Part shown: piece after piece, positions 13,376-31,789 of the stretch
How the letters are laid out: each line of letters begins with the position of its first letter
How positions within the stretch are numbered: position 1 is the stretch's first letter
Assembly (NCBI GenBank): GCA_938028465.1
Contig: CALJAA010000091.1
Coordinates: 1-59,157 of the forward strand
Source of the DNA: an uncultured Granulosicoccaceae bacterium
GTDB taxonomy: Bacteria > Pseudomonadota > Gammaproteobacteria > Granulosicoccales > Granulosicoccaceae
Reading direction: 5' to 3'
DNA length: 59,157 bases
Position numbers and translations under genes: made by a program
Notes under the pieces: generated by a model
What the model was told of the DNA's origin: nothing
The model's database searches: none
Seen by the model: the letters and a program-made list of their open reading frames with translations, nothing else

Positions 13376-16300
13376 CTAGTTGATCAGCTTCATCTCTACG
13401 CGTCGGTTTTTCGCACGACCGGCTGCAGTTGAGTTGTCTGCAATGGGTCGAAGTTCGCCATACGCTTTAAGTGAAAAGCGACTAACTCTGATACCCGCTT
13501 TTTGTAAAAACTTAGCAACAGCAATGACACGCTTTTTGGATAAATCTTGGTTAGACTTTGTAGAGCCTTGATCATCAGTATGCGCTGATAATACAAATCG
13601 CATATCAGGGTAGGCGCGTAGCGTTGCGACCACTTCATTCAATTTAACACGAGCGTTAATGGTTAAAGCAGCTGATGACGATTCAAAGTTAACACCTTCT
13701 AGTACACCATTAAACAGTGCACAACCCCGAGCATCAACTGCAGTGCCTCTTGAGGTATCTGGGCAAAGATCGATGTTATCGTTAACGCGGTCACCGTCTC
13801 TGTCGGCCACGATGGTAGGCAATGGGGTAGGAGTGGGTACTATTGCGGGTAGTGGTTGAGTTACTGCTTGTGGCTCCTGCTCAATAATTCGCCGCTGCGC
13901 AACACGGCGCCGCTTATTCGTTTTACCAAAACGGTAAATCAAACCAAGCTGCATGTATTTCACGTCAGTATCGAAGTGAATGAATTCTGCCCGAACGCCC
14001 AAGCCACGACGGCCAGTGTATTCAAAGCCTACGCCAAGCAATAAATGATTGCTGTTCTCTTGAGAGTAGGGCACGGCATCAGAGCTACGCGTGTTTACCA
14101 AACCACCTATACCGATTCTGCCAAAGCCTGTTAAGCCGTGTCGCTTGTGACGGTGGCGAGCCTTACCAGCATAAAGCAAGGCGCTGAAGCCGTTGGTTTT
14201 GTAGTTAATCGACCCTTCCGGCGATAAACCTGCATCTCCGAGTTCTGTTGCATGTGCTTCAACAGAAAACCATCGGTTTACATCGTAACCCAATGTGAGC
14301 TGCATGCCTGAATCGCTATCGCTGCTTACATCCCAACCGGGTACGTCGTCTGTATCCGGCGTTAAGGTGCTTGAACCAATACCAAAGCCAATATAGATCT
14401 GACGTCGAAGCTTATCTTCAACTCGGTATTGAGCTTGTTGTGCAGAAAGGGTAGTTGAATCTTCGGTCGCCATTGCGACGTTACTGGGAGTATCCAGTAT
14501 TACTGAGCCAATAACAATTGCGCTCAGTAGTGCAGGAATACGCGCAGTACGTCGACGTAGTAGATACGCCATTGATACCAACGCTAATAATGGTAGTAGT
14601 GGGTCGCGTGAACCCGAATCATCTATTGAACAACCACCGCTTAAGCCGGTGCGAATAAGAGGATCAGCCACGACTTCTGTACTTGGCTCATCAATATCTG
14701 GTATACCGTTAGCATTGTTATCGGCTATCACATCAATTTGAGGCGAGCCTGTGCCATCACTTTGGGCGTCAGCAAAGCCGTCGCCATCAGCATCCGGATC
14801 AAGTGAATCAATAATGCCGTCGCCATCAGTATCTTGTGCATTAGGGTTTGAATCTGCGTCAGCGGCATCGATGATGCCATCTAGGTCAGCATCAGGGCCA
14901 GCTGTTTGAGTCGTGTCGATAGTATCTGGGATGCCGTCTCCATCAGTATCCAACACTGAATCCACCATGCTGTCGCCATCGTTATCAATACCACCAGCTT
15001 CCACTAGATCAGAGATACCATCGTTATCAGTATCAAGATCAAGATGATCAGGAGCGCCATCGTTATCAACATCGTCAGCTGGGAGAGGGAAGTCAGCTAC
15101 GCTGTCATCCAGGCCATCGCCGTTTGTATCAGTAAAATTATCAACACGACCATCACCGTCACCATCAGCAGAGAAATCATTTGATTCTGCTAAGTCTGGT
15201 AATCCGTCGTTGTCACTGTCAACGTCAAGGTGATCAACAATGCCATCACCATCGAAGTCGTTATCTGGTAGCGGCAGTGCAGCTACTCCGTCATCCCAAC
15301 CATCGTTGTTAGTATCAACAAAGCCATCGATGATGCCGTCAGTATTGGTGTCAGTACCACCAGCCTCATAAGCGTCAGTCAAGCCGTCGTTGTCACTATC
15401 AAGGTCGAGATAATCACGGATGCCGTCACCATCAGTATCGATGGCCGTTTCGTCTTTATCGAGTAGGCCGTCGTTGTCACTATCGATATCAAGTGAATCA
15501 ACTACACCATCACCATCAGTGTCGAGTGTGCCTTCAACGGCATCAGAAATACCATCGTTATCCGAATCGATCAAGCCATCGGTTACATCAGGCTCACCGT
15601 CATTGTCTGAATCCAGATCCAATGCATCGATAACGCCGTCTCCATCGGTATCAATGGCACCTTCATCAGCATCGAGTAGGCCGTCACCATCCGCATCAAG
15701 ATCTTGGTAGTCAGGAATGCCGTCAACGTCGGTATCAACTGGTGTATTACCATTGGCTCCAGCTTCCTGGCTATCAAGCAGGCCATCTGCATCACTATCA
15801 GTATCTAAATAATCAAGAATGCCGTCGCCATCGGTGTCAACAGGAGCCGTTGGAGTAGCGCCTGCTTCAAGACTGTCGGGAATACCATCAGCATCGCTAT
15901 CGGTATCGAGATAATCAGGAGTGCCGTCGCCATCTGAATCGACAGTGCCTTCTAAGGCATCAGGAATACCATCGTTGTCGCTATCCATTACATCGGATTC
16001 TATAAAGTCCGGTACGCCGTTACCATCGGAATCCACTGGTGTGCCAGGGTTTGGCCCGGCTTCATCCGCATCAATAGTACCGTCGTTGTCAGCATCAAGA
16101 TCCAAAAAGTCTGGAGATCCGTCACCGTCTGTATCGACAGGAGTAGCGGCCGTAGGGCCAGCTTCAATCGCATCGGGGATGCCATCCGCATCACTATCGG
16201 TATCTAAGTAGTCAGGTGTGCCATCGTTATCAGTATCTGTTGGAGCGGTTGGGTTTACACCAGCTTCAACACTGTCAGGGATACCGTCTCCGTCGCTATC

Positions 16301-19300
16301 AAGTTCTAAGTGATTAGGTGCTGTATCTGCATCTAGATCAGTTGGTTCGAATGCATCGTCAATACCGTTACCATCGGCATCAGTACCGCCAGTTTGCGTA
16401 ACATCAATCGCGTCATCAATGCCGTCTGTATCTGCATCCGTACCGAGTAGGGCAGGTGTAGTGGTATCTTCAATTGCGTCAGGGATACCGTCGCCATCTG
16501 AATCAAGATCCAAATAATCCGGCATGAGATCGCTATCAGTATCTAGAATAGTTTCATAGATATCAGCAATGCCATCATTGTCAGCATCGATATCAAGATG
16601 ATCAGGTTTTCCATCAGCATCTGTGTCAACCGGTTCTAGTGCATCATCAACACCGTTGCCGTCAGCATCGGTACCGCCTGTCACATCAACGTCGATTGCG
16701 TCATCAACACCATCGTTGTCAGCGTCTGTGCCCAATAGAGTAGGAGACATAGTGTCTTCTGCACTATCAAGGATATTGTCATTATCCGAATCGGTGTCTT
16801 GATAGTCAGGTATACCGTCGCCATCGGTATCCGCAACCGTACCGGCCGGTGCTTCAACTAAATCAGCAATGCCGTCGTCATCACTATCAATGTCTAGATA
16901 ATCAGGAGTGCCGTCAGCATCAGTATCTTGAGGAGAGTTAACTAAAGGTCCTGACGAGACACCAGCTTCAACACTATCAGGAATACCGTCATTATCTGAA
17001 TCAAGATCTAAGTAGTCAAATGTGCCATCGCCATCAGTGTCGATATTGCCTTCTACTGAATCGGGAATGCCGTCACCATCGGTGTCAGGATCCATAAAGT
17101 CAGGGATGCCGTCACTGTCTGTGTCGGCTGAACCTTCGTCAGTATCAAGAATACCGTCGCCATCAGAATCTAGATCTAAGTAATCCGGGCTACCGTCGCT
17201 ATTGCTATCAATGGGAGTTGCTGGGTTAGGGCCCGCTTCGACGGCATCAGGAATACCGTCGCCATCACTATCAAGATCTAAGTGATTTGGTGCGGTATCG
17301 GTGTCAAGGTCCGTGGGTTCGAATGCGTCATCAATACCGTTGCCATTCGCATCGGTACCACCAGTTAGCGTTACATCAACCGCGTCGTCGATACCATCCG
17401 CATCGGCGTCAGTGCCTAGAAGGGCAGGCGTAGTGCTATCTTCAACGGCATCAGGAATGCCGTCGCCATCTGAATCCAGATCCAAGTAATTAGGTATTAG
17501 ATCGCCATCAGTATTGATAGTTGTTTCATAGCTGTCGAGTATGCCGTCAGCATCGCTATCCATATCCAAGTGATCAAACAAACCATCGCCATCTGTATCA
17601 GTTGGGGCTAGAGTGTCGTCAACACCATCATAGTTTTCATCCGCACCGCCAGTGATCGATGCATCTACCGCATCGTCAATACCATCAAGGTCACTGTCTG
17701 TGCCTAGGAGTGCTGGGCTATTAGTATCTTCAGTAGCATCTAGAATACCGTCGTTATCGCTGTCTGTATCCAAGCTGTTGGGGATACCGTCGCCATCGGC
17801 ATCGCCCGCACCTTCCGCGGCATCTGCAATGCCATCATTGTCGTCATCAAGATCACTGCTGTCAGGTATACCGTCGCCGTCAGTATCAAGTTCGATTACT
17901 ACTGCAGCTGTTGGAATCTTAGACGTTAGATCCTGTGCGATTAAATCAATATAAGACACCGTTAGCGTATCGCCCGGCTGCGTGTTCATTGAACCGTTAT
18001 TTGCAGTACCGGCTGTGGTGCCTGCAGCTGTTGGCATTGTGCCTTCAAAAATACCTGTGTTTGATCCAGTCTCTGTAAGTGTAACTGTTTCGATTTCACC
18101 GGTAACGTCGTTTAAGACTTCAACGTCAACCGTATCTGTTGCTGACGCAAAGAGATTAAGGTCTGGGTCTGTGACTGATATCGCAATGGGGTAGCCGGTA
18201 GCGCCGATAGGATCAGCAGTAACTGTTCCGTCATTAGCCACCTGTAAAACGTCATCATTGATGATTGCAGTCGGAGCGTAGAATACTTCGGCTAAGCCGT
18301 ATACATAAGTATCAAGTAAGTTTTCGTTACCAAAGCTGGTGCTGACAAAATCGCCCCAAGTGTGTTTTCCGGCTGATGTGTTAGAGAGTGCGCCAACGGG
18401 TGTGTTACTGGTTCCGCCAGCTGGCATTAGCGTGACATCATCCCAATAAACTCTTGCAGGGGATACTGTGCCATCTGGATTTGCCAAATGAATCGTTAAA
18501 CCGTCTTCTGTACCACCACTGGTTTCTGCATCACTGGCAATAAAGTGATACTCGCCCATATGCATTTGTACCTGAGAATAATACGTGCCCAAAGGTGGCG
18601 CTACACCAGCGGCGTCTTTGCCGTCCCAAGCGATTTGGTTTAAGCCGATAACTGAGTTACCGAGTAAGTGCCGATCACCAGTGTTGCCGTAAATGCCATC
18701 TTGATTAAGATCGATCAGTATTGAGTAGGTACCTTCTACATCAGTAGTAAATTCGAAAACACCACTATCCTGTACGCCAGTCGAAGTGCCAGGAGAAATG
18801 GCGAAATCCTGTCCGTCTGAATCTACAAACCTTACGCCCGTTAGAGCTGGCGGAGTAGCTGGGCGAGGTAGAAATGTCGCCGGGTAACTGACGTACATCG
18901 GATGTTCGTATTCAGCGGAGTTGCCAATAACTGGGGCGCTGTAGCCCGATCTTGGTGCTGCTATTCCAACAGAGTTAGCTTTCAGGTTATAACCGAAACC
19001 GGCAAAGTTGTTTAAATCTAACTGCCAAACGTATTCGGTTCCAGGCCGTCCGCCTGGTACTCGGGCATAGAAGTTCGCGTCAGTTGAATTGAATTCAGCG
19101 AAACCACCAGCATTGAAGCTAAATGAGTAAGCCCAAAGTCTGCCGCCCTCTAGTGTTGGGTCAGGGTCTGTCGTGGCATCCGGCGTAACAGTAATATCGT
19201 AGCGATCAAATAAGCTGTCGTGAACACCAGTAAATGAGGTGTTCTGCAACACAAGTCGATACGCGCCTGTTTCAGTTGACGTAAAACGAATTGGATTCGT

Positions 19301-19678
19301 GAGTGGGCCCGTCATTGGGTCGGAGCAATTGACGTTGCCTTCAGTTAAGTTTTGAGTATATTCAGGCGTTGTGTTGTTGGATGGTGAGTAAAACTCGACC
19401 GTGATGTCGTCTGTTTGAACGCCGCCACAGAGCGATACATTGATCACTTCGCCAACGCTCAAGATATCAACGTATAGTGAGGCAGATGCATCGTCACTTG
19501 CGTAACCTTGATCGATACTGCGTTGATGATCAATTAATCGTTGGCCAAGACCCATTTGCACAACACCTTCAGCGTGTACAGCAGCGGATTGAAACATAAG
19601 GAGTGTTGTAACACCCGCTAGGGTTAATCGAACAGGGTGTCTTACCCAGTCGATTGATAACAAAGATTTATTGGCCAT
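13376..19678 (-). CDS. Giant calcium-repeat protein fused to OmpA-like barrel and OmpA C-terminal domain
   Basis: A 2100-residue exported protein. In order: Sec signal peptide (cleavage near Ala36); a beta-rich region of unknown family to about 590; about 1070 residues of Asp-rich DxDxDGxxD thrombospondin-type-3-like repeats expected to bind calcium (about 593-1666); a segment starting GGCS (Cys1683), then a Leu-rich helix and LLRRR (to 1710) that resembles a C-terminal protein-sorting signal; a second signal-peptide-like stretch ending VAMA (about 1735); an OmpA-like eight-strand barrel (about 1745-1915); one more TSP3 unit; and an OmpA peptidoglycan-binding domain (about 1988-2100) with HTDDQGS and NRRVEMK motifs. 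GAGGCGCC precedes the ATG. It is probably a cell-surface or envelope-tethering protein. Confidence 0.88.
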   Translation of the reverse strand: MANKSLLSIDWVRHPVRLTLAGVTTLLMFQSAAVHAEGVVQMGLGQRLIDHQRSIDQGYASDDASASLYVDILSVGEVINVSLCGGVQTDDITVEFYSPSNNTTPEYTQNLTEGNVNCSDPMTGPLTNPIRFTSTETGAYRLVLQNTSFTGVHDSLFDRYDITVTPDATTDPDPTLEGGRLWAYSFSFNAGGFAEFNSTDANFYARVPGGRPGTEYVWQLDLNNFAGFGYNLKANSVGIAAPRSGYSAPVIGNSAEYEHPMYVSYPATFLPRPATPPALTGVRFVDSDGQDFAISPGTSTGVQDSGVFEFTTDVEGTYSILIDLNQDGIYGNTGDRHLLGNSVIGLNQIAWDGKDAAGVAPPLGTYYSQVQMHMGEYHFIASDAETSGGTEDGLTIHLANPDGTVSPARVYWDDVTLMPAGGTSNTPVGALSNTSAGKHTWGDFVSTSFGNENLLDTYVYGLAEVFYAPTAIINDDVLQVANDGTVTADPIGATGYPIAISVTDPDLNLFASATDTVDVEVLNDVTGEIETVTLTETGSNTGIFEGTMPTAAGTTAGTANNGSMNTQPGDTLTVSYIDLIAQDLTSKIPTAAVVIELDTDGDGIPDSSDLDDDNDGIADAAEGAGDADGDGIPNSLDTDSDNDGILDATEDTNSPALLGTDSDLDGIDDAVDASITGGADENYDGVDDTLAPTDTDGDGLFDHLDMDSDADGILDSYETTINTDGDLIPNYLDLDSDGDGIPDAVEDSTTPALLGTDADADGIDDAVDVTLTGGTDANGNGIDDAFEPTDLDTDTAPNHLDLDSDGDGIPDAVEAGPNPATPIDSNSDGSPDYLDLDSDGDGILDTDEGSADTDSDGIPDFMDPDTDGDGIPDSVEGNIDTDGDGTFDYLDLDSDNDGIPDSVEAGVSSGPLVNSPQDTDADGTPDYLDIDSDDDGIADLVEAPAGTVADTDGDGIPDYQDTDSDNDNILDSAEDTMSPTLLGTDADNDGVDDAIDVDVTGGTDADGNGVDDALEPVDTDADGKPDHLDIDADNDGIADIYETILDTDSDLMPDYLDLDSDGDGIPDAIEDTTTPALLGTDADTDGIDDAIDVTQTGGTDADGNGIDDAFEPTDLDADTAPNHLELDSDGDGIPDSVEAGVNPTAPTDTDNDGTPDYLDTDSDADGIPDAIEAGPTAATPVDTDGDGSPDFLDLDADNDGTIDADEAGPNPGTPVDSDGNGVPDFIESDVMDSDNDGIPDALEGTVDSDGDGTPDYLDTDSDADGIPDSLEAGATPTAPVDTDGDGILDYLDTDSDADGLLDSQEAGANGNTPVDTDVDGIPDYQDLDADGDGLLDADEGAIDTDGDGVIDALDLDSDNDGEPDVTDGLIDSDNDGISDAVEGTLDTDGDGVVDSLDIDSDNDGLLDKDETAIDTDGDGIRDYLDLDSDNDGLTDAYEAGGTDTNTDGIIDGFVDTNNDGWDDGVAALPLPDNDFDGDGIVDHLDVDSDNDGLPDLAESNDFSADGDGDGRVDNFTDTNGDGLDDSVADFPLPADDVDNDGAPDHLDLDTDNDGISDLVEAGGIDNDGDSMVDSVLDTDGDGIPDTIDTTQTAGPDADLDGIIDAADADSNPNAQDTDGDGIIDSLDPDADGDGFADAQSDGTGSPQIDVIADNNANGIPDIDEPSTEVVADPLIRTGLSGGCSIDDSGSRDPLLPLLALVSMAYLLRRRTARIPALLSAIVIGSVILDTPSNVAMATEDSTTLSAQQAQYRVEDKLRRQIYIGFGIGSSTLTPDTDDVPGWDVSSDSDSGMQLTLGYDVNRWFSVEAHATELGDAGLSPEGSINYKTNGFSALLYAGKARHRHKRHGLTGFGRIGIGGLVNTRSSDAVPYSQENSNHLLLGVGFEYTGRRGLGVRAEFIHFDTDVKYMQLGLIYRFGKTNKRRRVAQRRIIEQEPQAVTQPLPAIVPTPTPLPTIVADRDGDRVNDNIDLCPDTSRGTAVDARGCALFNGVLEGVNFESSSAALTINARVKLNEVVATLRAYPDMRFVLSAHTDDQGSTKSNQDLSKKRVIAVAKFLQKAGIRVSRFSLKAYGELRPIADNSTAAGRAKNRRVEMKLIN
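14690..17905 (-). repeat. TSP3-like calcium-binding repeat region inside the giant gene
   Basis: This coding repeat array has units such as DTDGDGIPDYLDLDSDNDG, roughly 13 residues per Asp motif, often in pairs separated by VEAG or EDT spacers. Within it, the block around EDTNSPALLGTD (codon near 17703) recurs around EDTMSPTLLGTD (near 16731). The block around EDSTTPALLGTD (near 17421) recurs near 16449. Both pairs are offset by exactly 972 bases (324 codons), which indicates an internal segmental duplication. Confidence 0.85.
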
Positions 19679-21769: not shown

Positions 21770-22168
21770 TTACTTTAGCGGACGTCCGAAACACAGAATA
21801 TAACCGCTGTTGTCCTGTGCTTCAAACGCACGTAAACCATCTTTAGTATCACTTAGTGGCCGAGTAATTATGTTGGGGTCGGAGTTGTACTCTTCAAATA
21901 GCGCGTCAGGGTCTTGCGTATAGATATATACATCCCATCGAGCCCATTCATGTTGAGTGTGATTTGGCATTGGCTTTGTGTTGGCGTTAATGCTTTTAAG
22001 TTGAATCCCAACTTTGTCTCGCTCGACGATCGCGAACAAAGGGTTAGGATTAGGGATGAGTGTTGTTATCTCAAAACCAAGTTTGTCGCGATAAAAATGA
22101 GCAGATTCAATAACGTTATCTACGATAAAGAACGGCATTGCTTGCGCTAACTTGGCTTTTATTGACAT
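21770..22168 (-). CDS. VOC (glyoxalase/bleomycin-resistance) family protein
   Basis: A 132-residue cytoplasmic protein with two beta-alpha-beta-beta-beta halves: MPFFIVDNVIESAHFYRDKLGF at the start, a central DVYIYTQDPDALFEEY, and FEAQDNSGYILCFGRP at the end. The last contains the position that carries a metal ligand in many members, but the usual final Glu/His ligands are not clear, so catalysis cannot be inferred. It lies 27 bases after the DUF1330 gene on the same strand, probably one transcript. Confidence 0.85.
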   Translation of the reverse strand: MSIKAKLAQAMPFFIVDNVIESAHFYRDKLGFEITTLIPNPNPLFAIVERDKVGIQLKSINANTKPMPNHTQHEWARWDVYIYTQDPDALFEEYNSDPNIITRPLSDTKDGLRAFEAQDNSGYILCFGRPLK

Positions 22169-22195
22169 GTTAAATCCTCTGTATAAAGCAGTTCG

Positions 22196-22489
22196 CTAAT
22201 TTGGCAGCCCTTCTACAACGATCATATTTCTATTCATAGCATCGGGCTTAACCTTCAGTGCTTCGGCATAGCTTTTTGATCCGTACCATTCTTTCGCTTT
22301 TTCTGTGGTGGGAAACTCGGCGATAATAATGGCTTTTGGATTCCAATCTCCCTCTATAACTTCAAGTGCTCCTGCTTGTACATGAAATTTCCCGCCGTAA
22401 GGTGCGAGAGTTTGTTCTGATAGTGCAAGGTATTCTAGAAGTTTTTCTCTGTTCTTTACATCAACATCACAAATTAAAAATGCGCTCAT
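22196..22489 (-). CDS. DUF1330 family protein
   Basis: A 97-residue dimeric alpha-beta-barrel-type protein. DUF1330 traits are LICDVDVKNREKLLEY, APYGGKFHVQAGALEVIEGDW, IIIAEFPTTEKAKEWYGSKSY and the final IVVEGL strand. The biochemical role is unknown. ATG at 22489 has AGGAAG upstream; the frame continues to 22621 but that extension is not part of the family. It is probably co-transcribed with the downstream VOC gene. Confidence 0.85.
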   Translation of the reverse strand: MSAFLICDVDVKNREKLLEYLALSEQTLAPYGGKFHVQAGALEVIEGDWNPKAIIIAEFPTTEKAKEWYGSKSYAEALKVKPDAMNRNMIVVEGLPN

Positions 22490-22711
22490 ATATCTTCCTA
22501 TAACCAATGAATAAGGCGTCGCTCTTCGAGAGTTAGCAAATTGTTGTTTTAAGAATATAACGAAAAAACCGCTTAGGACAAACTCAAACATAAGATTGTC
22601 ATAAGGCTTTATGACAGCCACGAACGGTAGTTCAAATTTGTGTAAGGGATTTTTGATTAATGCTTAGGGGAGGGTGTTGAGGGTGGATCTAAACGATCCG
22701 GATAAAACGTC

Positions 22712-23502: not shown

Positions 23503-23886
23503 CTAAAGCCTCACGCTTTGCGCTGACAGTTTGATGTCCAGCTGAAAACTACCTTCATTTACCAACCACCTGCGTATGGTGTACGACCGTGTGCCAGTTT
23601 GATGCATTGGATCAGCCTCAGCGAGAGCCGTCGCCGCTTCCAGTGATTCAGCTCGATACACAATCATTCCAACACCTTCCATTAGCTCACCGGTTAAATC
23701 TGAGAGTGGCCCGGCCATAACTAGGTTTCCTTTTTGTTCTTGCTCTGCTTGGTAGGCGAGATGGCCGGGTAAGTTTTTTTTCAGTGTCTCAGGTGGCTTA
23801 ACTGGCGTGCTAACCACGGCATAAAGCTCCAACGCCAAAGATCCGCGCTCAACAGCGGCCTGCTTGTACTCTGTCCATGCTGGCAT
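23503..23886 (-). CDS. YciI-like protein at the catabolic cluster
   Basis: A 127-residue protein with a YciI/YCII-type ferredoxin-like fold: NLVMAGPLSDLTGELMEGVGMIVYRAESLEAATALAEADP is the typical strand-helix unit with the Asp/His pair (ADPMHQTG) that forms the pocket. Relatives include muconolactone-isomerase/dehalogenase-like enzymes, so a lactone or dienelactone step is conceivable but unproven. ATG at 23886 is set by GAGGA upstream. It is divergent from the FAH hydrolase, sharing a 94-base control region that holds a perfect palindrome. Confidence 0.75.
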   Translation of the reverse strand: MPAWTEYKQAAVERGSLALELYAVVSTPVKPPETLKKNLPGHLAYQAEQEQKGNLVMAGPLSDLTGELMEGVGMIVYRAESLEAATALAEADPMHQTGTRSYTIRRWLVNEGSFQLDIKLSAQSVRL

Positions 23887-23903
23887 AAATATCCTCGTTA
23901 ATA

Positions 23904-23917
23904 AAATATCGATATTT
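23904..23917. promoter_or_regulatory. Candidate operator palindrome
   Basis: The perfect 14-base palindrome AAATATCGATATTT lies in the short divergent spacer between the YciI-like and FAH genes, next to a TTGACA at 23919-23924. The only regulator encoded in the cluster is the GntR/FCD protein at 29943-30638, so it is a candidate binding site. No second copy was found in the cluster. Confidence 0.4.
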
Positions 23918-23980
23918 ATTGACAAAGTAACAAATAATCGTCAAAAATCAAAGCCATCATTTCTAAAATATAGAGTTCGA

Positions 23981-24868
23981 ATGAGATTCTTAGTAGGAAC
24001 CGCGGCGTCGGCGCAAGGCGAGTTACCCAGCGTGTACGTCGTAAATAGTAATCAAGCCATTAATCTAACGGCGCTGGATAACAGCATTGGGCATGATCTT
24101 CGAAATCTAATTGAGCAAGGCGATGCGGTTAGTCGAGTTAATAAATTAGCGCAAGGTGCTGCTGCTATTCCTGTTGCTAACATCACACCTGCGTTACCCA
24201 TTGCCATGCCTGGTAAAACAATCTGCTTAGGGTTGAATTACACCGATCATATTAAAGAGGGTGGTTACGACGTGCCAGATTACCCAGCCCTTTTTATGCG
24301 TGGGCCAAATTCCTTGATGGCAGCTGGCGCGCCGATGATTCGGCCCGCCTGTTCCGAACAGCTCGACTACGAAGTTGAGCTGATGGTTATCGTCGGTAAG
24401 TCAGGTAAGCATATTAGCGAAGCAGATGCATTGGATTATGTTTTTGCATACTCCGTTTTTAATGATGGTTCGGTCAGAAACTACCAACGTAAAACCCATC
24501 AATGGACGCCTGGGAAAAATTTTGATTCAACGGGTCCAATTGGGCCTTACTCAGTAACGCCTGATGAGCTTCCGCCTGGCGCGTCTGGTTTAAAAATCGA
24601 AAGCCGAGTAGGCGATGAAATCCTTCAATCGGCAAATACGTCTGAAATGCTTTGGCCTGTGGCTCGTACGATTGCGACTATTTCTGAATTCGCCACACTA
24701 CAGCCGGGCGATTACATTGCCATGGGTACACCGCCTGGTGTGGGGCACGCACGCACGCCTCAACGTTGGCTTCGCCCAGGTGAAACCATTGAAGTGGAAA
24801 TTGAGGGTATTGGTATTTGTGCCAATCCAATTGTGGCTGAGGAAGATCTTTCAGGTGGGCCTGCTTAA
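23981..24868 (+). CDS. Fumarylacetoacetate hydrolase (FAH) family protein
   Basis: A 295-residue FAH-fold enzyme; members hydrolyse C-C bonds of, or isomerise/decarboxylate, 2-oxo acids in aromatic catabolism. Metal and substrate motifs are CLGLNYTDHIKEGG, DYEVELMVIVGKSGK (Glu ligands), FNDGSVRNYQ, TPGKNFDSTGPIGPY and the final YIAMGTPPGVG. The start is ATG at 23981 (weak ribosome site); longer starts lack family similarity. Its stop overlaps the nitroreductase start by one base (TAATG), so the genes are translationally coupled. Likely substrates are ring-cleavage products, but the exact reaction is unknown. Confidence 0.88.
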   Translation: MRFLVGTAASAQGELPSVYVVNSNQAINLTALDNSIGHDLRNLIEQGDAVSRVNKLAQGAAAIPVANITPALPIAMPGKTICLGLNYTDHIKEGGYDVPDYPALFMRGPNSLMAAGAPMIRPACSEQLDYEVELMVIVGKSGKHISEADALDYVFAYSVFNDGSVRNYQRKTHQWTPGKNFDSTGPIGPYSVTPDELPPGASGLKIESRVGDEILQSANTSEMLWPVARTIATISEFATLQPGDYIAMGTPPGVGHARTPQRWLRPGETIEVEIEGIGICANPIVAEEDLSGGPA

Positions 24869-25533
24869 TGAGCGAGCCAAATGACAAATCACCAGAACAA
24901 CAAAGGGCTGAAGCACAATCGTATTACCACGATTTAAAAGCACGTAAGCCTCGCTTGGATGAAGACTCGATAGACCTGATCCTACGTGGTGCGCGTTCAC
25001 ACTATGCTTGGAAAGATAAAGCTGTCGACAATGCCACCCTTGAAAAGTTGTATGACATTACGGCCGCTGGCGCAACTAGCATGAACTCTTGCCCTGCACG
25101 CTTTACGTTTGTAACCAGTAAAGAGGGTAAGCAGCGATTAGCAAAATCACTTAAAGCTAAGAATGTTGAAAAAATGATGGGCGCGCCAGTTACTGCAATT
25201 ATTGCTTATGATCTGAATTTCTGGGAACGGCTACCGTTTCTATTCCCCCACGAGGACCGACGCGGATTTTTTAAAGGCAAAACGGAATACATTGCTGACA
25301 CGGCTTTTCGAAACTCTACGTTGCAGGGTGCTTATTTCATGATCGCAGCTAGGGCTCTTGGTCTTGATGTCGGCGCGCTGTCTGGTTTTTCTAACGACAT
25401 CGTTGATGAAGAGTTCTTTGCCAACACCAGTTTGCGTTCTAACTTTCTCTGCAATCTGGGTTACGCGGACGAAACTGCGTTGTTTCAAAAACTCCCACGC
25501 TTCGCGTTTGACGAAGTGTGCTCATTTATTTAG
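24868..25533 (+). CDS. RutE-like nitroreductase-family oxidoreductase
   Basis: A 221-residue flavin (FMN) oxidoreductase. Its segments GATSMNSCPARF, APVTAIIAYDLNFWERLPFLFPHED, DTAFRNSTLQGAYFMIAARALGLDVG and SGFSNDIVDEEFF closely resemble the RutE/HadB (3-hydroxypropionate dehydrogenase-like) branch of the nitroreductase family. RutE reduces malonic semialdehyde in uracil breakdown; other members reduce nitro groups or enones. No other rut gene is present, so here it more likely reduces an aromatic or ring-cleavage intermediate (inference). It is coupled to the FAH gene and ten bases before the OsmC-like gene. Confidence 0.85.
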   Translation: MSEPNDKSPEQQRAEAQSYYHDLKARKPRLDEDSIDLILRGARSHYAWKDKAVDNATLEKLYDITAAGATSMNSCPARFTFVTSKEGKQRLAKSLKAKNVEKMMGAPVTAIIAYDLNFWERLPFLFPHEDRRGFFKGKTEYIADTAFRNSTLQGAYFMIAARALGLDVGALSGFSNDIVDEEFFANTSLRSNFLCNLGYADETALFQKLPRFAFDEVCSFI

Positions 25534-25542
25534 GAAATCCTG

Positions 25543-25998
25543 ATGGCGATAACTCAGAAAACAACAGTGCCGCTTAAAGCATCAGCGACATGCCCAACGC
25601 ATTCGAAAGCACTAATAACTATTCGTGATCTTGATTTTGCTATTGATGAGCCGACTGAGCGTGGGGGCACAAACATGGGGCCCACACCCACAGATGCCGC
25701 TATTGCTGCTCTGGTGGGTTGCACGAATGTCATTGGCAATAAGTGCGCAAGTAAACTCGGCATCGATATAGGGCATCTAACAATTGATGCAACGTGTCAG
25801 TTTGATCGGCGCGGTGTCATGCTCAGTGAAGAAATTGATGTGCCCTTTGTAAAAATTGCTTTGAACATTACGGCAAATGGGCCGGCAACAACTGAAGAGT
25901 TGAAGTTGGTGGCTGCTGAAGTGTCGAAGTTTTGTCCGTTGTCAAAGCTATTCCGCCAGGCTGGAACGCAGATTGAGGAAAACTGGCAGTCGGCTTAA
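25543..25998 (+). CDS. OsmC-family protein
   Basis: A 151-residue OsmC/Ohr-fold protein with the two redox cysteines of the family in ALVGCTNVIGNKCASKLG and SKFCPLSKLFRQAG. OsmC proteins are thiol peroxidases for organic hydroperoxides. In catabolic clusters some relatives have other, undefined roles. AGGAAATCCTG precedes the ATG. The tight spacing to the nitroreductase and TRAP genes indicates one operon. Confidence 0.87.
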   Translation: MAITQKTTVPLKASATCPTHSKALITIRDLDFAIDEPTERGGTNMGPTPTDAAIAALVGCTNVIGNKCASKLGIDIGHLTIDATCQFDRRGVMLSEEIDVPFVKIALNITANGPATTEELKLVAAEVSKFCPLSKLFRQAGTQIEENWQSA

Positions 25999-26021
25999 AC
26001 ATCCACCACTTGGAGAACTGT

Positions 26022-27098
26022 ATGAAAGGTAAATTATTATTATCTGCTGCAGCGACAGTGTGTTGCCTAGCGCAACCGCTTAGCGTAACCGCGGCTGAAA
26101 CTATCACCGCTGTTGTTATTGATGGTTACCCAGCAAAGGCGATGTGGGTTAAAGAATTTAGCGGTTTTTTCATACCTGAAGTAGACAAGCGCCTTGCTGC
26201 TACGGGTAACTATAAAATGGATTGGCAGGAAAGCTATGGCGGCTCCATTGTTAAGCCTAAAGGCGTGCTTGAAGGTGTCAAGCTGGGGTTGGGTGATATT
26301 GGTATTGTTACGACCATATTTCACTCTTCTAAATTACCGAGCCAGGCGCTTGCCGCGGTCACGCCGTTTATCGCGCCAGATTCACGCGTGGTTGCTAAAG
26401 CAGTTGATGAAATTGCAAAAGAATTTCCGACCATGCAAAAAGAATTTGAAAAACAGAATCAGATTTATCTAGCAACGGGCGTTGTGCTAGACACTTATCA
26501 AATGTTCAGTAGTCAAGAGGTGGCTTCATTAAAGGATATTGAAGGTGGCAAAGTTGCCGGTGCAGGTATGAATATGCGATACGTAGAGGGCATCGACGGA
26601 GCGGTTGGTGTACGAGGAGGCCTCACCGATTTCTACAGCATGTTGCAAACTGGCTTAGTTGATCATGCGATGCTTTGGCCTGAGGCGGCTAAGACATTTA
26701 AAATTGCTGAAGTGGCACCGAGTATGTTGAAGGTTGATTTGGGTGCAGTAAACTCTAAAACGGTAACAGTCAATGCAGATTACTGGAAAAAACTGCCCGA
26801 CGAGGTGAAAGACGTTTTACGTGAAGTGGCCGTTGCGTATCGCGATCATGTTGCCTCGGTTGCAATGGACAGAGCGGCTGCGAGCCGTGATGCCTATGTT
26901 GCTGCTGGTGGAACCGTTGTGGAAGTATCGAACGAAGATCGCGCCTCATGGGCAGCGGCCATGCCTAATATTGCGAAGGAATGGGCAAAGACATTGGACG
27001 ATAAAGGTGAGCCTGGTAGTGATATGTTGAAGAGCTACATGGGTAAGTTGTCCGAAGCTGGATTCACTCCTCTGCGCGATTGGGCGTCAGAGCTTTAA
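26022..27098 (+). CDS. dctP: TRAP transporter substrate-binding protein (DctP family)
   Basis: A 358-residue periplasmic solute receptor with a signal peptide ending near VTAA. The body is a typical DctP-fold: SYGGSIVKPKGVLEGVKLGLGDIG, SLKDIEGGKVAGAGM, and the partner-helix DEVKDVLREVAVAYRDH. The conserved carboxylate-binding Arg of TRAP receptors is probably in AGMNMRYVEG. ATG at 26022 is preferred over a TTG 12 bases earlier because GGAG sits correctly for it. The ligand is likely an organic acid, perhaps aromatic, given the enzymes around it. A hairpin follows the gene. Confidence 0.88.
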   Translation: MKGKLLLSAAATVCCLAQPLSVTAAETITAVVIDGYPAKAMWVKEFSGFFIPEVDKRLAATGNYKMDWQESYGGSIVKPKGVLEGVKLGLGDIGIVTTIFHSSKLPSQALAAVTPFIAPDSRVVAKAVDEIAKEFPTMQKEFEKQNQIYLATGVVLDTYQMFSSQEVASLKDIEGGKVAGAGMNMRYVEGIDGAVGVRGGLTDFYSMLQTGLVDHAMLWPEAAKTFKIAEVAPSMLKVDLGAVNSKTVTVNADYWKKLPDEVKDVLREVAVAYRDHVASVAMDRAAASRDAYVAAGGTVVEVSNEDRASWAAAMPNIAKEWAKTLDDKGEPGSDMLKSYMGKLSEAGFTPLRDWASEL

Positions 27099-27112
27099 TA
27101 TTCACATCTGCT

Positions 27113-27145
27113 AAAGGAGGGGTGCAGAATGCGCCCCTTTCTTTG
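27113..27145 (+). terminator. Intra-operon hairpin between dctP and dctQ
   Basis: GAGGGGTGC / GCGCCCCTT pairs around a five-base AGAAT loop, followed by TTTCTTT. It sits in the 61-base gap after dctP. Such hairpins can partly terminate transcription or protect the 3' end, giving more binding protein than membrane subunits; that role is inferred. Confidence 0.65.
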
Positions 27146-27159
27146 AAAAGCTAATTCTT

Positions 27160-27711
27160 ATGATTGTTGCCTTGCGATATATTGAACGGATTATCGAACG
27201 TATCGCCATTCTTGCAAATGCTATAGGCACACTGGTTGTGCTTGGATTGGTTGTGGTCGTGAATTACGACATCGTTGCTCGCGAGTTCTATGGCAAACCG
27301 TTTCATGGTGCGGTAGAGCTGGTTCAGTTCTCCATGGTGTTAATTGTTTTCTTACAATTGCCTGATGTTGTCAGGGTGAATCGACTAACACGCTCTGATG
27401 GTTTTTTATCTATTGCGCAAACGCGATGGCCATCACTAGCCGTATATCTCAATAAATTTATTCACCTGACTGCCTGCATTTTTATGTTGTTAGTCGCGAT
27501 AGCGATCTGGCCAGAGTTTCTCGATATGTGGGAAACCCAAGATTATTTTGGCGTACCTGGCGTATTCACAGCACCTTGGTGGCCAGTGAAGCTGGTGATA
27601 TTTTTGAGTGCATCACTGTGCTTCTTACTGTTTTTGCTCAAATTTATGTTACCTGCCGCTACATTAAAAACGGTTTCTGCTGAGAGTGGCGTCGGGGTCG
27701 ATATCACATGA
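27160..27711 (+). CDS. dctQ: TRAP transporter small membrane subunit (DctQ family)
   Basis: A 183-residue membrane protein with four hydrophobic helices and the DctQ hallmark NYDIVAREFYGKPFHGAVELVQFSMV in the first half. It pairs with DctM to form the sodium-driven transporter in the inner membrane. Its stop region overlaps the dctM start by four bases (ATGA). Confidence 0.92.
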   Translation: MIVALRYIERIIERIAILANAIGTLVVLGLVVVVNYDIVAREFYGKPFHGAVELVQFSMVLIVFLQLPDVVRVNRLTRSDGFLSIAQTRWPSLAVYLNKFIHLTACIFMLLVAIAIWPEFLDMWETQDYFGVPGVFTAPWWPVKLVIFLSASLCFLLFLLKFMLPAATLKTVSAESGVGVDIT

Positions 27712-29018
27712 CACCAATTGAGATAGGGTTAATTTCGGTATTGGCTATTGTCATACTGATCTACCTCGGTGTTTATATTCCTATTGCTTTAGGCGCCGTG
27801 TCTTTTGTTTCCATATGGCTCATGAGGGACAACTTTGATCTGGCCATGAACTTACTCAAGATTGCCTTGAGTGATAGCGTTATGGAATACACCTTCGCCA
27901 CGGTGCCCCTGTTTACCTTTATGGGGATGATCGTTTCCAAAGCTGGTTTAGGTGGCGATATTTATGATGTGATGAATGCAGCCTTCAGGCGGATTAGAGG
28001 CGGTATTGGCATGGCTACAGTAGGTGCTAATGCGGTTTTCGCTGCGGTTACCGGCTCATCAATCGCGTCGGCCTCGGTGTTTTCAACGGTTGCCGTTCCT
28101 CAAATGCTGCGGTACGACTACAACCCTCGATTTGCAGTGGGCGTTGTAGCCGGTTCTTCAGTGTTGGGAATGATTATCCCGCCATCAGCGATGTTGATCA
28201 TTTATTCCTTGGTTGCTGAGCAATCAGTTGGTGATATGTTTTTAGCTGGCATTATTCCTGGCTTGATGTTGGCAACTGCCTATATCGCGGCCATCTTTTT
28301 CGCTGGGCGTTTTTTTCCTAACTTTGTTGGTGGAAAGCCTGCTGACGACTATGAGCCAATGAGTTATTGGGCTATCGCCAGCAAAACCTTACCGTTGGTG
28401 TTTTTAATTGTTGTGGTGCTTGGTGGTATTTACACCGGTTGGATGACGCCTGTTGAAGCTGGAGCTGCTGGTGCGACGGTAGGTTTGCTCATTGCGATTC
28501 TGCGTGGACGAATGACGCCAAAACTATTTTGGGAGGCCCTACTTGAAACTGGACACATTAGTGCCGCCATCTTGTTTCTCATTACTGCGGCATCGATTTA
28601 CAGTCGCATGTTGGGCCTAGCAGGATTACCCAATGAATTGGGTGACATCATGGCTGAGAATCAATTCAGCTTTGCAATGGTTATGTTTATCTATGTTTGC
28701 TTAATGTTGTTTTTAGGTACGCTGCTGGATACTGCTTCAATCATATTAATCGTGGTGCCTTTGTTTTTACCACTTATTGAGCCGCTTGGTTTGAGCCCGG
28801 TGTGGTTTGGCATTGTTACTGTCGTGGGTGCAGAGATTGGCTTGTTAACACCACCGCTAGGCATCAGTTGCTTCGTTATAAAGTCTACGCTAAATGACCC
28901 ACGTATTACCTTAAAAGATGTGTTTCTGGGCGCGCTACCGTTTGCGATGGTTATGCTTGTTGTATTGATAATTTTGATTAATTTTCCAGTGCTCAGTACG
29001 GTTTTATTGAATAGATAG
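27708..29018 (+). CDS. dctM: TRAP transporter large membrane subunit (DctM family)
   Basis: A 436-residue protein with about twelve membrane helices; it forms the transport channel. Signatures are FTFMGMIVSKAGLGGDIYDVMN, NAVFAAVTGSSIASASVFSTVAVPQM, GSSVLGMIIPPSAMLIIYS and GAEIGLLTPPLGISCFV (helix-hairpin elements). It is the last transport gene, 23 bases before the dioxygenase gene, with which it is probably co-transcribed. Confidence 0.94.
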   Translation: MTPIEIGLISVLAIVILIYLGVYIPIALGAVSFVSIWLMRDNFDLAMNLLKIALSDSVMEYTFATVPLFTFMGMIVSKAGLGGDIYDVMNAAFRRIRGGIGMATVGANAVFAAVTGSSIASASVFSTVAVPQMLRYDYNPRFAVGVVAGSSVLGMIIPPSAMLIIYSLVAEQSVGDMFLAGIIPGLMLATAYIAAIFFAGRFFPNFVGGKPADDYEPMSYWAIASKTLPLVFLIVVVLGGIYTGWMTPVEAGAAGATVGLLIAILRGRMTPKLFWEALLETGHISAAILFLITAASIYSRMLGLAGLPNELGDIMAENQFSFAMVMFIYVCLMLFLGTLLDTASIILIVVPLFLPLIEPLGLSPVWFGIVTVVGAEIGLLTPPLGISCFVIKSTLNDPRITLKDVFLGALPFAMVMLVVLIILINFPVLSTVLLNR

Positions 29019-29041
29019 TTAAACATGATAGGTATTCTGAA

Positions 29042-29923
29042 ATGAGAAATGTGACTAGCGATAATATTACGGAAACGTTTCTGAGCTACTTTGGTGAAGA
29101 TACTGACCCACGTCTTAAAACCATTATGGAGTCATTAGCTAAGCATCTGCATGCATTCGCAAGGGAAACCAACTTAACGCATGAAGAGTGGACTAAAGGG
29201 TTAGATATTGTTAGGCAAGCTGGCAAAATCACTACGCCAGAGCGCGATGAATTCGTATTATTGTCTGACGTGTTGGGCTTGTCTTCCCTGGTTGACATGA
29301 TTAATTCACCTGAAAAGGGAACAAGCTCTAGCGTGCTTGGTCCATTTCATATTTCGAACCCACCGAAAATGGAGATGGGGTCTGATTTAAAAGGTGATCA
29401 CGAAGGTGAGCTGGTGCTGGTTACGGGTCGAGTGCTCGATACAGATGGTAATCCTATTGCGGGTGCAACACTAGACATCTGGCAAACGGCAGCTAACGGT
29501 TTGTATTCCTCACAAGATCCCGAACAAGATATCTATAGCTTTCATGCGTTGTTTACGACAGGTGATGATGGTTGCTACTCGTTTACAACCGTAAAGCCTG
29601 TTAGTTATACCGTGCCAACGGATGGCCCCGTTGGCGAGTTGTTAAAAGCTACAGGGCGCCATCCATGGCGGCCATCGCATCTTCATTACATTATCAAGGC
29701 TGATGGTTTTCGATCATTGGTTACTGAAGTGTTCCCTGATGATGACCCTTACCTTGATCAAGATACGGTTTTTGGTGTGCGAGATGATTTGGTAATGCAT
29801 TATGCACCACAAGCTGCAGGGAGCTTTCCCGAGCAAGGTTATACTTTATCGGGAAAAGTAAACGAATCCTATCTGCGAGTTGATTTTGATTTAGTGTTGT
29901 CTCCATCAACGACCACCACTTAA
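29042..29923 (+). CDS. Intradiol ring-cleavage dioxygenase (hydroxyquinol/catechol 1,2-dioxygenase-like)
   Basis: A 293-residue non-haem Fe(III) enzyme that splits a catechol-type ring between the two hydroxyls. All four iron ligands are visible: Tyr155 (ANGLYS), Tyr189 (KPVSYTVPTDGP), His213 and His215 (RPSHLHYII). The long N-terminal helical domain (about 1-95) is the dimer linker of the catechol/hydroxyquinol group, absent in protocatechuate dioxygenase. DIWQTAANGLYSSQD fits hydroxyquinol 1,2-dioxygenases slightly better, but substrate choice cannot be fixed by eye. No maleylacetate reductase or muconate cycloisomerase is present in the window. Confidence 0.9.
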   Translation: MRNVTSDNITETFLSYFGEDTDPRLKTIMESLAKHLHAFARETNLTHEEWTKGLDIVRQAGKITTPERDEFVLLSDVLGLSSLVDMINSPEKGTSSSVLGPFHISNPPKMEMGSDLKGDHEGELVLVTGRVLDTDGNPIAGATLDIWQTAANGLYSSQDPEQDIYSFHALFTTGDDGCYSFTTVKPVSYTVPTDGPVGELLKATGRHPWRPSHLHYIIKADGFRSLVTEVFPDDDPYLDQDTVFGVRDDLVMHYAPQAAGSFPEQGYTLSGKVNESYLRVDFDLVLSPSTTTT

Positions 29924-29942
29924 ACAAGTTAGGAGTTTTTGA

Positions 29943-30638
29943 GTGATTGATTTGGCGAGCACAGCAGTAATTCCAAGTAAGCAGGGCGATAGCGCTGATG
30001 TCGTGAAATCTGCCACGCAGCGCGCCTATCAAGGTATCCGTAAACGCATTATCAATGGCGAGATTTTGCCTGGTGAGCGTCTAAAAGTTGAATCACTGAA
30101 AGTGTTATTGAACACGGGTGCTTCGCCCATACGCGAAGCGCTGAGTTTGTTAACGTCAGATCAATTGGTGGAACGTATTGATCAACGTGGCTTTCGTGCG
30201 GCATCAGCGAGTAAACAGCACTTTCAAGAAATACTCATGCTGCGCTGCCAGCTGGAGGATCTTGCTATACGAGGCAGTATCGGGTCGGGTGACACGCAAT
30301 GGGAAGAGAGCTTAGTGCTGTGTCACTATCGTCTGCAACAGGCTGACCGAAACGACCCAGAGCAGTGGGAGCATCTACACAGAGCTTTCCATAGTGCTTT
30401 ATTGCTAGGTTGTGGGTCGCCGATACTACTACGCTTTTGCGACCAGCTTTATGATCTTAATGTTCGGTACCGTTTTCTTGCCGGGAAATCGGGTAGGTAC
30501 AGTAAGCGAGACATCGCCAGTGAGCATCAAAGCATACTCGATGCCGCACTTGCGCGTGATGCAACTCTGGCATCGGATTTACTGATAAGGCATTATAAAT
30601 TGACCGGTGAGTTTCTTGCTGATCAATTTGATGAGTAA
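29943..30638 (+). CDS. GntR-family regulator with FCD domain
   Basis: A 231-residue transcription factor. The N-terminal winged helix has the GntR pattern QRAYQGIRKRIINGEILPGERL and LNTGASPIREALSLL. The C-terminal helical FCD domain has the Asp/His metal-ligand spacing seen in LEDLAIRG, HRAFHSALLLGCGS and SEHQSILDAALARD. The start is GTG at 29943 with AGGAG seven bases upstream. It is most likely the local regulator of the catabolic cluster, responding to the substrate or an intermediate. Confidence 0.92.
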   Translation: MIDLASTAVIPSKQGDSADVVKSATQRAYQGIRKRIINGEILPGERLKVESLKVLLNTGASPIREALSLLTSDQLVERIDQRGFRAASASKQHFQEILMLRCQLEDLAIRGSIGSGDTQWEESLVLCHYRLQQADRNDPEQWEHLHRAFHSALLLGCGSPILLRFCDQLYDLNVRYRFLAGKSGRYSKRDIASEHQSILDAALARDATLASDLLIRHYKLTGEFLADQFDE

Positions 30639-30691
30639 AAGTGCGATAAACTAGGCTCACTAGCAACGAGTCATCAAAAAACCACAACGCC

Positions 30692-31789
30692 ATGTCAGCA
30701 TTATTCTCCCCTCTAACAATCAACGACGTAACATTCAAAAACCGTATCGGCATGTCACCCATGTGCCAATACGTGTCCAATGAGGGCGTGGCAACTGATT
30801 GGCATATGGTCCACTTAGGCTCAAGAGCAGTGGGTGGTGTTGGTTTTATCATGGCCGAAGCCACGGCTGTCTCTCCTACTGGGCGTATATCGCAGGGCTG
30901 TGCTGGCTTGTGGAGCCAAAAGCATGCAGATGCGCTCAAGCCTATAGTCGCTTTTCAACAGTCATATGGTGCAGTAACTGGGATTCAGATTTCCCACTCA
31001 GGGCGCAAAGGCAGTGCGGCGACAGCGTTGGAAGGTGGAAGCCATCTTGAGGCTGAGGATTCCAATGCATGGGAAACAGTTGGCCCAACAGATACGGCGT
31101 TTGATCCTGATGGCACTCGGTTATGGCGTGCCCCTCGAGCACTATCAGTTAGTGAAATCGAAACGATCCAAGATGAATTTGTTAATGCGGCGAAACTAGC
31201 AATAGAGGTTGGATACGATTTGTTAGAGGTGCATTGTGCTCACGGTTATTTGTTGCACTCATTTTTAACGCCGTTAGTGAATACCCGTGATGACAGTTAC
31301 GGTGGTGATCTGCGTGCTAGAGCTAGGTTCTTACTCGAAACGGTGGAGAAGGTGCGAGCGGTATGGCCGCAAGAACGAGTGTTGTCAGTAAGGCTATCAG
31401 TGCATGACTTCGTTGATGGCGGGCTAACGCTAGACGATACTGCTCAAGTCGGTAGGTGGCTTAAAGAGCTTGGTGTTGATTTTCTTGATTGTTCTGGCGG
31501 TGGTGCCGTGCCTGAAGCACGTGGTGCAATAGGAAATAAAACAGCCGAACAACCCGGTATGGCAGGGCAGTTAAAAGCAGATACGAGTTTGTTGACCATG
31601 GCAGTGGGCGGCATAACTGAGCCAAAGCAAGCTGAGGAAATCATCGCGTCGTCAACTGCCGACATGGTATTGCTGGGCCGCGAGATGATGCGTGATCCGC
31701 ATTGGGCATTTAATGCAGCAAAAGCGCTTGGTGTAGATGCGCGCCCAGTGTTAGCTGAGCAATATGGCTTTTTTGTTGGCGCTACCTAG
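30692..31789 (+). CDS. YqjM-type old yellow enzyme (NADPH ene-reductase)
   Basis: A 365-residue FMN TIM-barrel oxidoreductase. Class III (YqjM-like) traits are Cys25 in SPMCQY, QISHSGRKGS, EVHCAHGYLLHSFLTPLVNTR, DSYGGDLRARARF and the phosphate-binding VGGIT plus VLLGREMMRDPHW. It reduces activated C=C bonds using NAD(P)H. Beside a ring-cleavage enzyme it could reduce an unsaturated product, doing a job usually given to maleylacetate reductase; this is inference. It lies 53 bases after the GntR gene and converges on the SAF oxidoreductase. Confidence 0.9.
   Translation: MSALFSPLTINDVTFKNRIGMSPMCQYVSNEGVATDWHMVHLGSRAVGGVGFIMAEATAVSPTGRISQGCAGLWSQKHADALKPIVAFQQSYGAVTGIQISHSGRKGSAATALEGGSHLEAEDSNAWETVGPTDTAFDPDGTRLWRAPRALSVSEIETIQDEFVNAAKLAIEVGYDLLEVHCAHGYLLHSFLTPLVNTRDDSYGGDLRARARFLLETVEKVRAVWPQERVLSVRLSVHDFVDGGLTLDDTAQVGRWLKELGVDFLDCSGGGAVPEARGAIGNKTAEQPGMAGQLKADTSLLTMAVGGITEPKQAEEIIASSTADMVLLGREMMRDPHWAFNAAKALGVDARPVLAEQYGFFVGAT

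Follow-up and report, generated by a model that had tools for sequence, protein, structure and literature searches.

The window analysed here is a 59,157-nucleotide stretch (contig CALJAA010000091.1, assembly GCA_938028465.1) from an uncultured Granulosicoccaceae bacterium with a 4.1 Mb genome, the assembly being 89% complete. Within it lies a gene cluster built around an intradiol ring-cleavage dioxygenase, and an earlier note on this DNA had named ten genes between 23503 and 31789 as a catabolic unit of aromatic type that has a TRAP transporter and a regulator of its own. All ten open reading frames are present where that note placed them, and each scores above the Pfam cut-off for its named family (YCII, FAA_hydrolase, Nitroreductase, OsmC, DctP, DctQ, DctM, Dioxygenase_N+C, GntR+FCD and Oxidored_FMN). 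Start codons were corrected by inspection for YciI (ATG 23886), FAH (ATG 23981) and DctP (ATG 26022). Searching over one genome per species gave 80 loci whose dioxygenase is 61-90% identical to that of the window (90% in the nearest), and the counts below come from profile-based annotation of the 66 loci with enough flank, which span Granulosicoccaceae, Rhodobacteraceae, Stappiaceae, Vibrio and Leucothrix. As the tenth gene, an ene-reductase, is not recurrent beside the cluster, the conserved unit covers about 23503-30638 and ends short of 31789. Its features are as follows:

23503-23886, minus strand: YciI-like protein of 127 amino acids (Pfam YCII, 51 bits), divergent in 62 of the 66 loci
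23905-23916, strand not applicable: palindromic operator AATATCGATATT, an exact palindrome, with the GntR protein as its putative binder
23919-23924, plus strand: TTGACA, a -35-like box of the operon from FAH to dioxygenase, with TTGAC 2 bp past the palindrome
23981-24868, plus strand: FAH-superfamily C-C hydrolase, predicted acylpyruvase type (Pfam, 215 bits)
24868-25533, plus strand: RutE/IstO-like nitroreductase-family flavoenzyme, predicted hydroxyquinone reductase (NF003768, 258 bits; PDB IstO, 103 bits)
25543-25998, plus strand: OsmC-like protein with conserved C60 and C131 (Pfam OsmC, 53 bits; 50 of the 66 loci)
26022-27098, plus strand: TRAP solute-binding protein DctP (Pfam DctP, 87 bits)
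27160-27711, plus strand: TRAP small permease DctQ (Pfam DctQ, 45 bits)
27708-29018, plus strand: TRAP large permease DctM (Pfam, 280 bits; TIGR00786 cut-off exceeded)
29042-29923, plus strand: intradiol ring-cleavage dioxygenase of hydroxyquinol type (best PDB relatives, 211-248 bits)
29943-30638, plus strand: GntR/FCD regulator (Pfam GntR and FCD; under the CsiR cut-off; 63 of the 66 loci)

Nine of the ten genes recur jointly in tens of genomes, far beyond chance. The dioxygenase is present in all 66 loci, DctM in 65, the nitroreductase, DctP and DctQ in 64 each, GntR in 63, YciI in 62, FAH in 52 and OsmC in 50, and the YciI gene points away from the nitroreductase or FAH operon in the related loci as well. 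Accessory genes include those for malonyl-CoA decarboxylase (MatA, 32 loci), malonyl-CoA synthetase (MatB, 28), an amidohydrolase (16) and a homocitrate-synthase-like enzyme, HMGL (10). The cluster is confirmed as real, conserved and mostly as the earlier note described it: that note had named scattered genes in a neighbourhood comparison as the outcome that would speak against a catabolic unit with its own transporter and regulator, and the genes are conserved together. The ene-reductase does not share in this, as the other loci hold just two distant homologues at 39% and one at 24%, and the ene-reduction step once proposed for it is not supported.

The divergent promoter carries AATATCGATATT and, two bases further on, TTGAC(A). 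Across 74 regions, the palindrome was found exactly in 38 and with one mismatch in 22 (60/74, against 0.09 expected at up to one mismatch in dinucleotide-model sequences), and TTGAC starts 2 bp past it in 67/67 loci having the site. The host genome has one exact copy of the composite of palindrome and TTGACA, and a second copy with two mismatches. Exact palindromes number 0-3 per genome in 40 related genomes, for which the reversed control gave one match in total, and the site is absent from 12/12 control loci around other dioxygenases. It precedes displaced FAH genes (L021, L039, L040), displaced MatA genes (L058, L064, L079), GntR/HMGL (L016, L023, L025, L028, L032, L033, L037, L038), a gene for an MBL-fold hydrolase (L041, L042, L043, L047), the dioxygenase in L030 and a second TRAP system in L138. 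Because the palindrome accompanies genes that have moved off the divergent promoter, these genes form one regulon independent of adjacency, and the GntR protein is probably the regulator that binds AATATCGATATT and controls the whole set. Operator searches in the host genome and the 40 others revealed no upstream enzyme, a few sites away from the cluster not having been examined. The MBL-fold hydrolase, operator-linked in Labrenzia/Roseibium, has an apparent signal peptide and lies beside the cluster (L041:300-1394, L141:15865-16959).

The dioxygenase is the sole intradiol (PF00775) enzyme found in the host genome. Its closest PDB structures are hydroxyquinol and 6-chlorohydroxyquinol 1,2-dioxygenases (211-248 bits), with catechol types at no more than 125 bits. 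All four iron ligands, already recognised in the earlier note (Tyr155, Tyr189, His213, His215), and the pocket residues Leu73, Asp76, Gly100, Pro101, Phe102, Arg210 and Val243 are invariant in 79 orthologues. Ligand and pocket positions, the latter chosen as those we take to be given in the 1TMX paper, are the same as in 1TMX apart from F108L and I199V. Two residues next to the iron ligands mark the group, namely Ser212 (Ala in 9/9 usable controls) and Thr190 (mostly Pro in controls). Assignment of the enzyme to the hydroxyquinol type, as judged from these residues, is well supported. In a Ruegeria locus (L054:10868-13193), genes for an amidohydrolase, a YtkA-like protein and a MauG-type peroxidase lie directly behind the dioxygenase, an arrangement of restricted distribution.

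The fate of the cleavage product is indicated by the FAH gene and the genes that accompany or replace it. The nearest NCBIfam model for the FAH protein is 2,4-didehydro-3-deoxy-L-rhamnonate hydrolase, at 179 bits and below the equivalog cut-off. Residues H129, E132, E170, E172, D201 and K218 (numbering of the open reading frame 23864-24868) are conserved in 63 homologues, and presumably provide the metal triad, His-Glu dyad and lysine. The protein has its family, metal ligands and dyad in common with FAH-superfamily acylpyruvate hydrolases (L-2,4-diketo-3-deoxyrhamnonate hydrolase, FAHD1), whereas its predicted substrate is 2,4-dioxoadipate; we predict an enzyme of acylpyruvase type. In a minority of genomes it is replaced by HMGL, a homocitrate-synthase-like DRE-TIM enzyme, the two being mutually exclusive (51 loci with FAH only, 9 with HMGL only, 4 with neither; in the single HMGL locus that also has FAH, the latter is a distant paralogue). 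The exchange accounts for seven changes on the dioxygenase tree, and L136:10226-12340 is a compact variant without FAH, in which HMGL directly follows the dioxygenase, behind DctPQM.

Where MatA and MatB (the latter at 793 bits, cut-off 558) occur in the 66 loci, they mostly belong to the divergent unit with YciI, which they have joined in several lineages, Vibrio ulleungensis among them. Among MatA-bearing loci, MatB is present in 27/29 with FAH, 0/5 with HMGL and 0/2 with neither (Fisher p = 4e-6, with no correction for descent), and independent contrasts agree in nearly every pairing. In the simplest chemistry, free malonate from FAH would require MatB, while malonyl-CoA from HMGL would require MatA alone; a metal-bound pyruvate enolate can be stabilised by enzymes of either type. 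A malonate exit of the pathway is well supported. We take the rhizobial matPQMAB malonate clusters to combine MatA/MatB with a TRAP transporter and a GntR regulator, as many of the relatives' loci do, and presumably to lack the dioxygenase, FAH, nitroreductase and YciI genes.

The lack of muconate cycloisomerase, maleylacetate reductase and ring hydroxylase, which the earlier note had read from the cluster, stands, and for maleylacetate reductase it extends to the 89%-complete host genome, where the best match is a 32% partial Fe-ADH. This reductase (identity checked against 3HL0 and 3W5S) adjoins 7/12 control dioxygenases, which are at most 49% identical to that of the window, and lies beside none of the orthologous dioxygenase loci; a true copy was found in 1 of about 22 dioxygenase-bearing relatives, on another contig. 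These results bear on an ordinary hydroxyquinol pathway, in which the nitroreductase or ene-reductase would reduce maleylacetate to 3-oxoadipate and FAH would act downstream or on a side product. Such a pathway would suit the dioxygenase pocket, which matches hydroxyquinol enzymes, and the flavin reductase in 64/66 loci. However, it appears unlikely with maleylacetate reductase absent and the ene-reductase not conserved, and it leaves MatA/MatB, the FAH/HMGL exchange and their operator sites unaccounted for.

Because of MatA/MatB, the FAH/HMGL exchange and the shared operator, we instead favor acylpyruvate-type cleavage over ene-reduction followed by hydrolysis. In retro-Claisen release of malonate from a 2-X-maleylacetate, the other half departs as pyruvate enolate, X being OH or a hydrolysable NH2. 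Since malonate release needs this enolate, the ring should carry an OH at hydroxyquinol position 6, which would make 1,2,3,5-tetrahydroxybenzene the exact ring substrate. Drawing on what is observed of gene content and families, conservation, operator, FAH/HMGL exchange, MatA/MatB linkage and missing maleylacetate reductase, we propose that the regulon degrades a highly hydroxylated benzene, from 1,2,3,5-tetrahydroxybenzene through 2,4-dioxoadipate to pyruvate and malonate, a reading with roughly equal chances of being right and wrong. The TRAP system would import a phenolic or quinonoid compound, perhaps, as a guess, a brown-algal phenolic. On the model of TcpB and TftG, the RutE-like flavoenzyme would hold hydroxyquinones in the reduced quinol form and YciI would help at the level of the hydroxyquinone or lactone. 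The dioxygenase would open 6-hydroxyhydroxyquinol (1,2,3,5-tetrahydroxybenzene) to 2-hydroxymaleylacetate, the enol of 2,4-dioxoadipate, which FAH would cut to pyruvate and malonate. MatB and then MatA, where present, would convert malonate to malonyl-CoA and acetyl-CoA, and HMGL in place of FAH would perhaps yield malonyl-CoA directly. Of the sequence once suggested in the earlier note (uptake, reduction, cleavage, ene-reduction, hydrolysis), the catabolic unit with transporter and regulator is retained and the ene-reductase step is not; the malonate arm, FAH/HMGL exchange and shared operator had been missing from it.

Several points weigh against this proposal, in which all reactions and substrate identities are predicted. 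The cluster has no ring hydroxylase or decarboxylase, which leaves the supply of tetrahydroxybenzene unexplained. About half of the loci have no adjacent MatA/MatB; in the host genome MatA lies apart, on a different contig and with no clear operator, and a MatB orthologue was not found there (best match 31%, in an 89%-complete assembly). The MatB/FAH association rests on two well-supported independent contrasts, four in all, and we know of no precedent for CoA-dependent cleavage by HMGL. In addition, the residues and family position of FAH do not tell whether it is a hydrolase, a decarboxylase or an isomerase. The protein is also close to HpcE-type decarboxylase/isomerases, as would be expected if another ring (pyrogallol-type, or a methoxy- or amino-hydroxyquinol) were cleaved and FAH served as a decarboxylase, hydratase or isomerase like HpcE. 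An amino substituent would likewise give 2,4-dioxoadipate after deamination, but pyrogallol or methoxy routes release no malonate and the pocket residues are of hydroxyquinol type, and we regard a different ring as rather improbable.

As to where tetrahydroxybenzene might arise, no ring hydroxylase was found among the conserved cluster genes. FAD monooxygenases elsewhere in the host genome were considered and rejected, the best two being 4-hydroxybenzoate 3-monooxygenase and a 3-hydroxybenzoate hydroxylase-like protein. The gene of this 3-hydroxybenzoate hydroxylase-like FAD monooxygenase has a sulfatase gene directly upstream (L193:1-3303, contig C97). A betaproteobacterial locus (L144:7778-11305) has the order flavin monooxygenase, hydroxyquinol-type dioxygenase, FAH, without maleylacetate reductase, and from this order the hydroxylase may supply the ring substrate there.

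The nitroreductase resembles RutE and IstO (PDB IstO, 103 bits) and exceeds the cut-off of NF003768, the NCBIfam model for the malonic semialdehyde reductase RutE (258 against 152 bits), in line with the earlier RutE-like assignment. Its predicted role as hydroxyquinone reductase is drawn by analogy with TcpB, which we take to be a nitroreductase-family quinone reductase found beside chlorohydroxyquinol dioxygenases and a partner in (chloro)hydroxyquinol systems. For YciI, phmmer gave no match in the PDB, and a structural search did find relatives: the best matches to the AlphaFold model (pLDDT 92.5) are HI0828, TftG (chlorohydroxyhydroquinone dehydrochlorinase) and ClcF, with a weaker likeness to the cofactor-independent oxygenase SnoaB. 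Judged from the model, YciI would thus resemble the YciI-type partner, TftG, of (chloro)hydroxyquinol systems. The TcpB/TftG-containing systems use a dioxygenase of the same subfamily, whereas the window cluster has neither maleylacetate reductase nor monooxygenase, and FAH or HMGL with malonate genes instead. OsmC and nitroreductase are redox-type families and polyhydroxybenzenes autoxidise, which would suit a mainly protective unit in which OsmC (C60 and C131 conserved among homologues), nitroreductase and YciI detoxify quinones and peroxide and carbon gain is incidental. Catabolism is indicated instead by the dedicated transporter and by the operator shared with the genes that take malonate to acetyl-CoA, and we consider a protective unit highly unlikely.

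In DctP, 77/78 orthologues have Ala where two solved relatives (7nr2, 4n6d) carry an Arg that presumably binds the substrate carboxylate; R190, nearby, is invariant. This substitution suggests that the ligand may be other than an ordinary carboxylate. TAXI-type TRAP genes lie beside the cluster in some Granulosicoccaceae (L003:11634-16832, and similarly L023, L025 and L038), mostly with a sulfatase, and these neighbours hint at sulfated phenols.

Among open-licence papers, we found no description of the window gene set. Two of them (PMC13094099, PMC12388069), citing Martins et al. 2024, describe a central pathway through 1,2,3,5-tetrahydroxybenzene in fungi only, and assign its ring opening, to 5-hydroxydienelactone, to a DUF3500 protein. 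The pathway shares the proposed ring-cleavage substrate with the window cluster and differs in ring-opening enzyme; a DUF3500-type opener was considered and rejected, there being no PF12006 match in the host genome. The anaerobic phloroglucinol pathway of Clostridium scatologenes also degrades a polyhydroxybenzene, but is reductive and oxygen-independent with different enzymes; some marine alpha- and gammaproteobacteria are also reported to carry its genes (PMC10470551). Brown-algal phenolics are reported to include tetrahydroxybenzene and hydroxyquinol (PMC13412289), and Granulosicoccus/Granulosicoccaceae dominate kelp blades (PMC9238374). A more speculative version, which we hold to be quite doubtful, is a complete aerobic bacterial phloroglucinol-type pathway through which marine bacteria would consume brown-algal phlorotannin units: YciI, cofactor-free, would oxygenate phloroglucinol to 2,6-dihydroxybenzoquinone, the nitroreductase would reduce this to 1,2,3,5-tetrahydroxybenzene, and intradiol cleavage with FAH (or CoA-dependent HMGL forming malonyl-CoA) would give pyruvate and malonate.

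Elsewhere in the window, glyoxalase-family and DUF1330 genes lie on the minus strand beyond YciI (21770-22621), outside the set conserved with the cluster. A 2100-residue protein (13376-19678) has an OmpA-like C-terminus and, by eye, very many Asp-rich DxDxDG calcium-binding-like repeats.

Brown-algal polyhydroxylated phenols are a sizeable marine carbon pool for which bacterial aerobic routes are poorly known. As the cluster occurs in Granulosicoccaceae and in many cultured roseobacters, the prediction is directly testable. If true, the bacterial repertoire would gain a route of ring cleavage that, according to a 2026 paper, so far seems restricted to fungi (PMC13094099), and HMGL would be a second, unrelated enzyme for the same C-C cleavage as FAH. 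The cluster suggests an undescribed marine way of consuming highly hydroxylated phenols, common to seaweed-associated and other marine bacteria.

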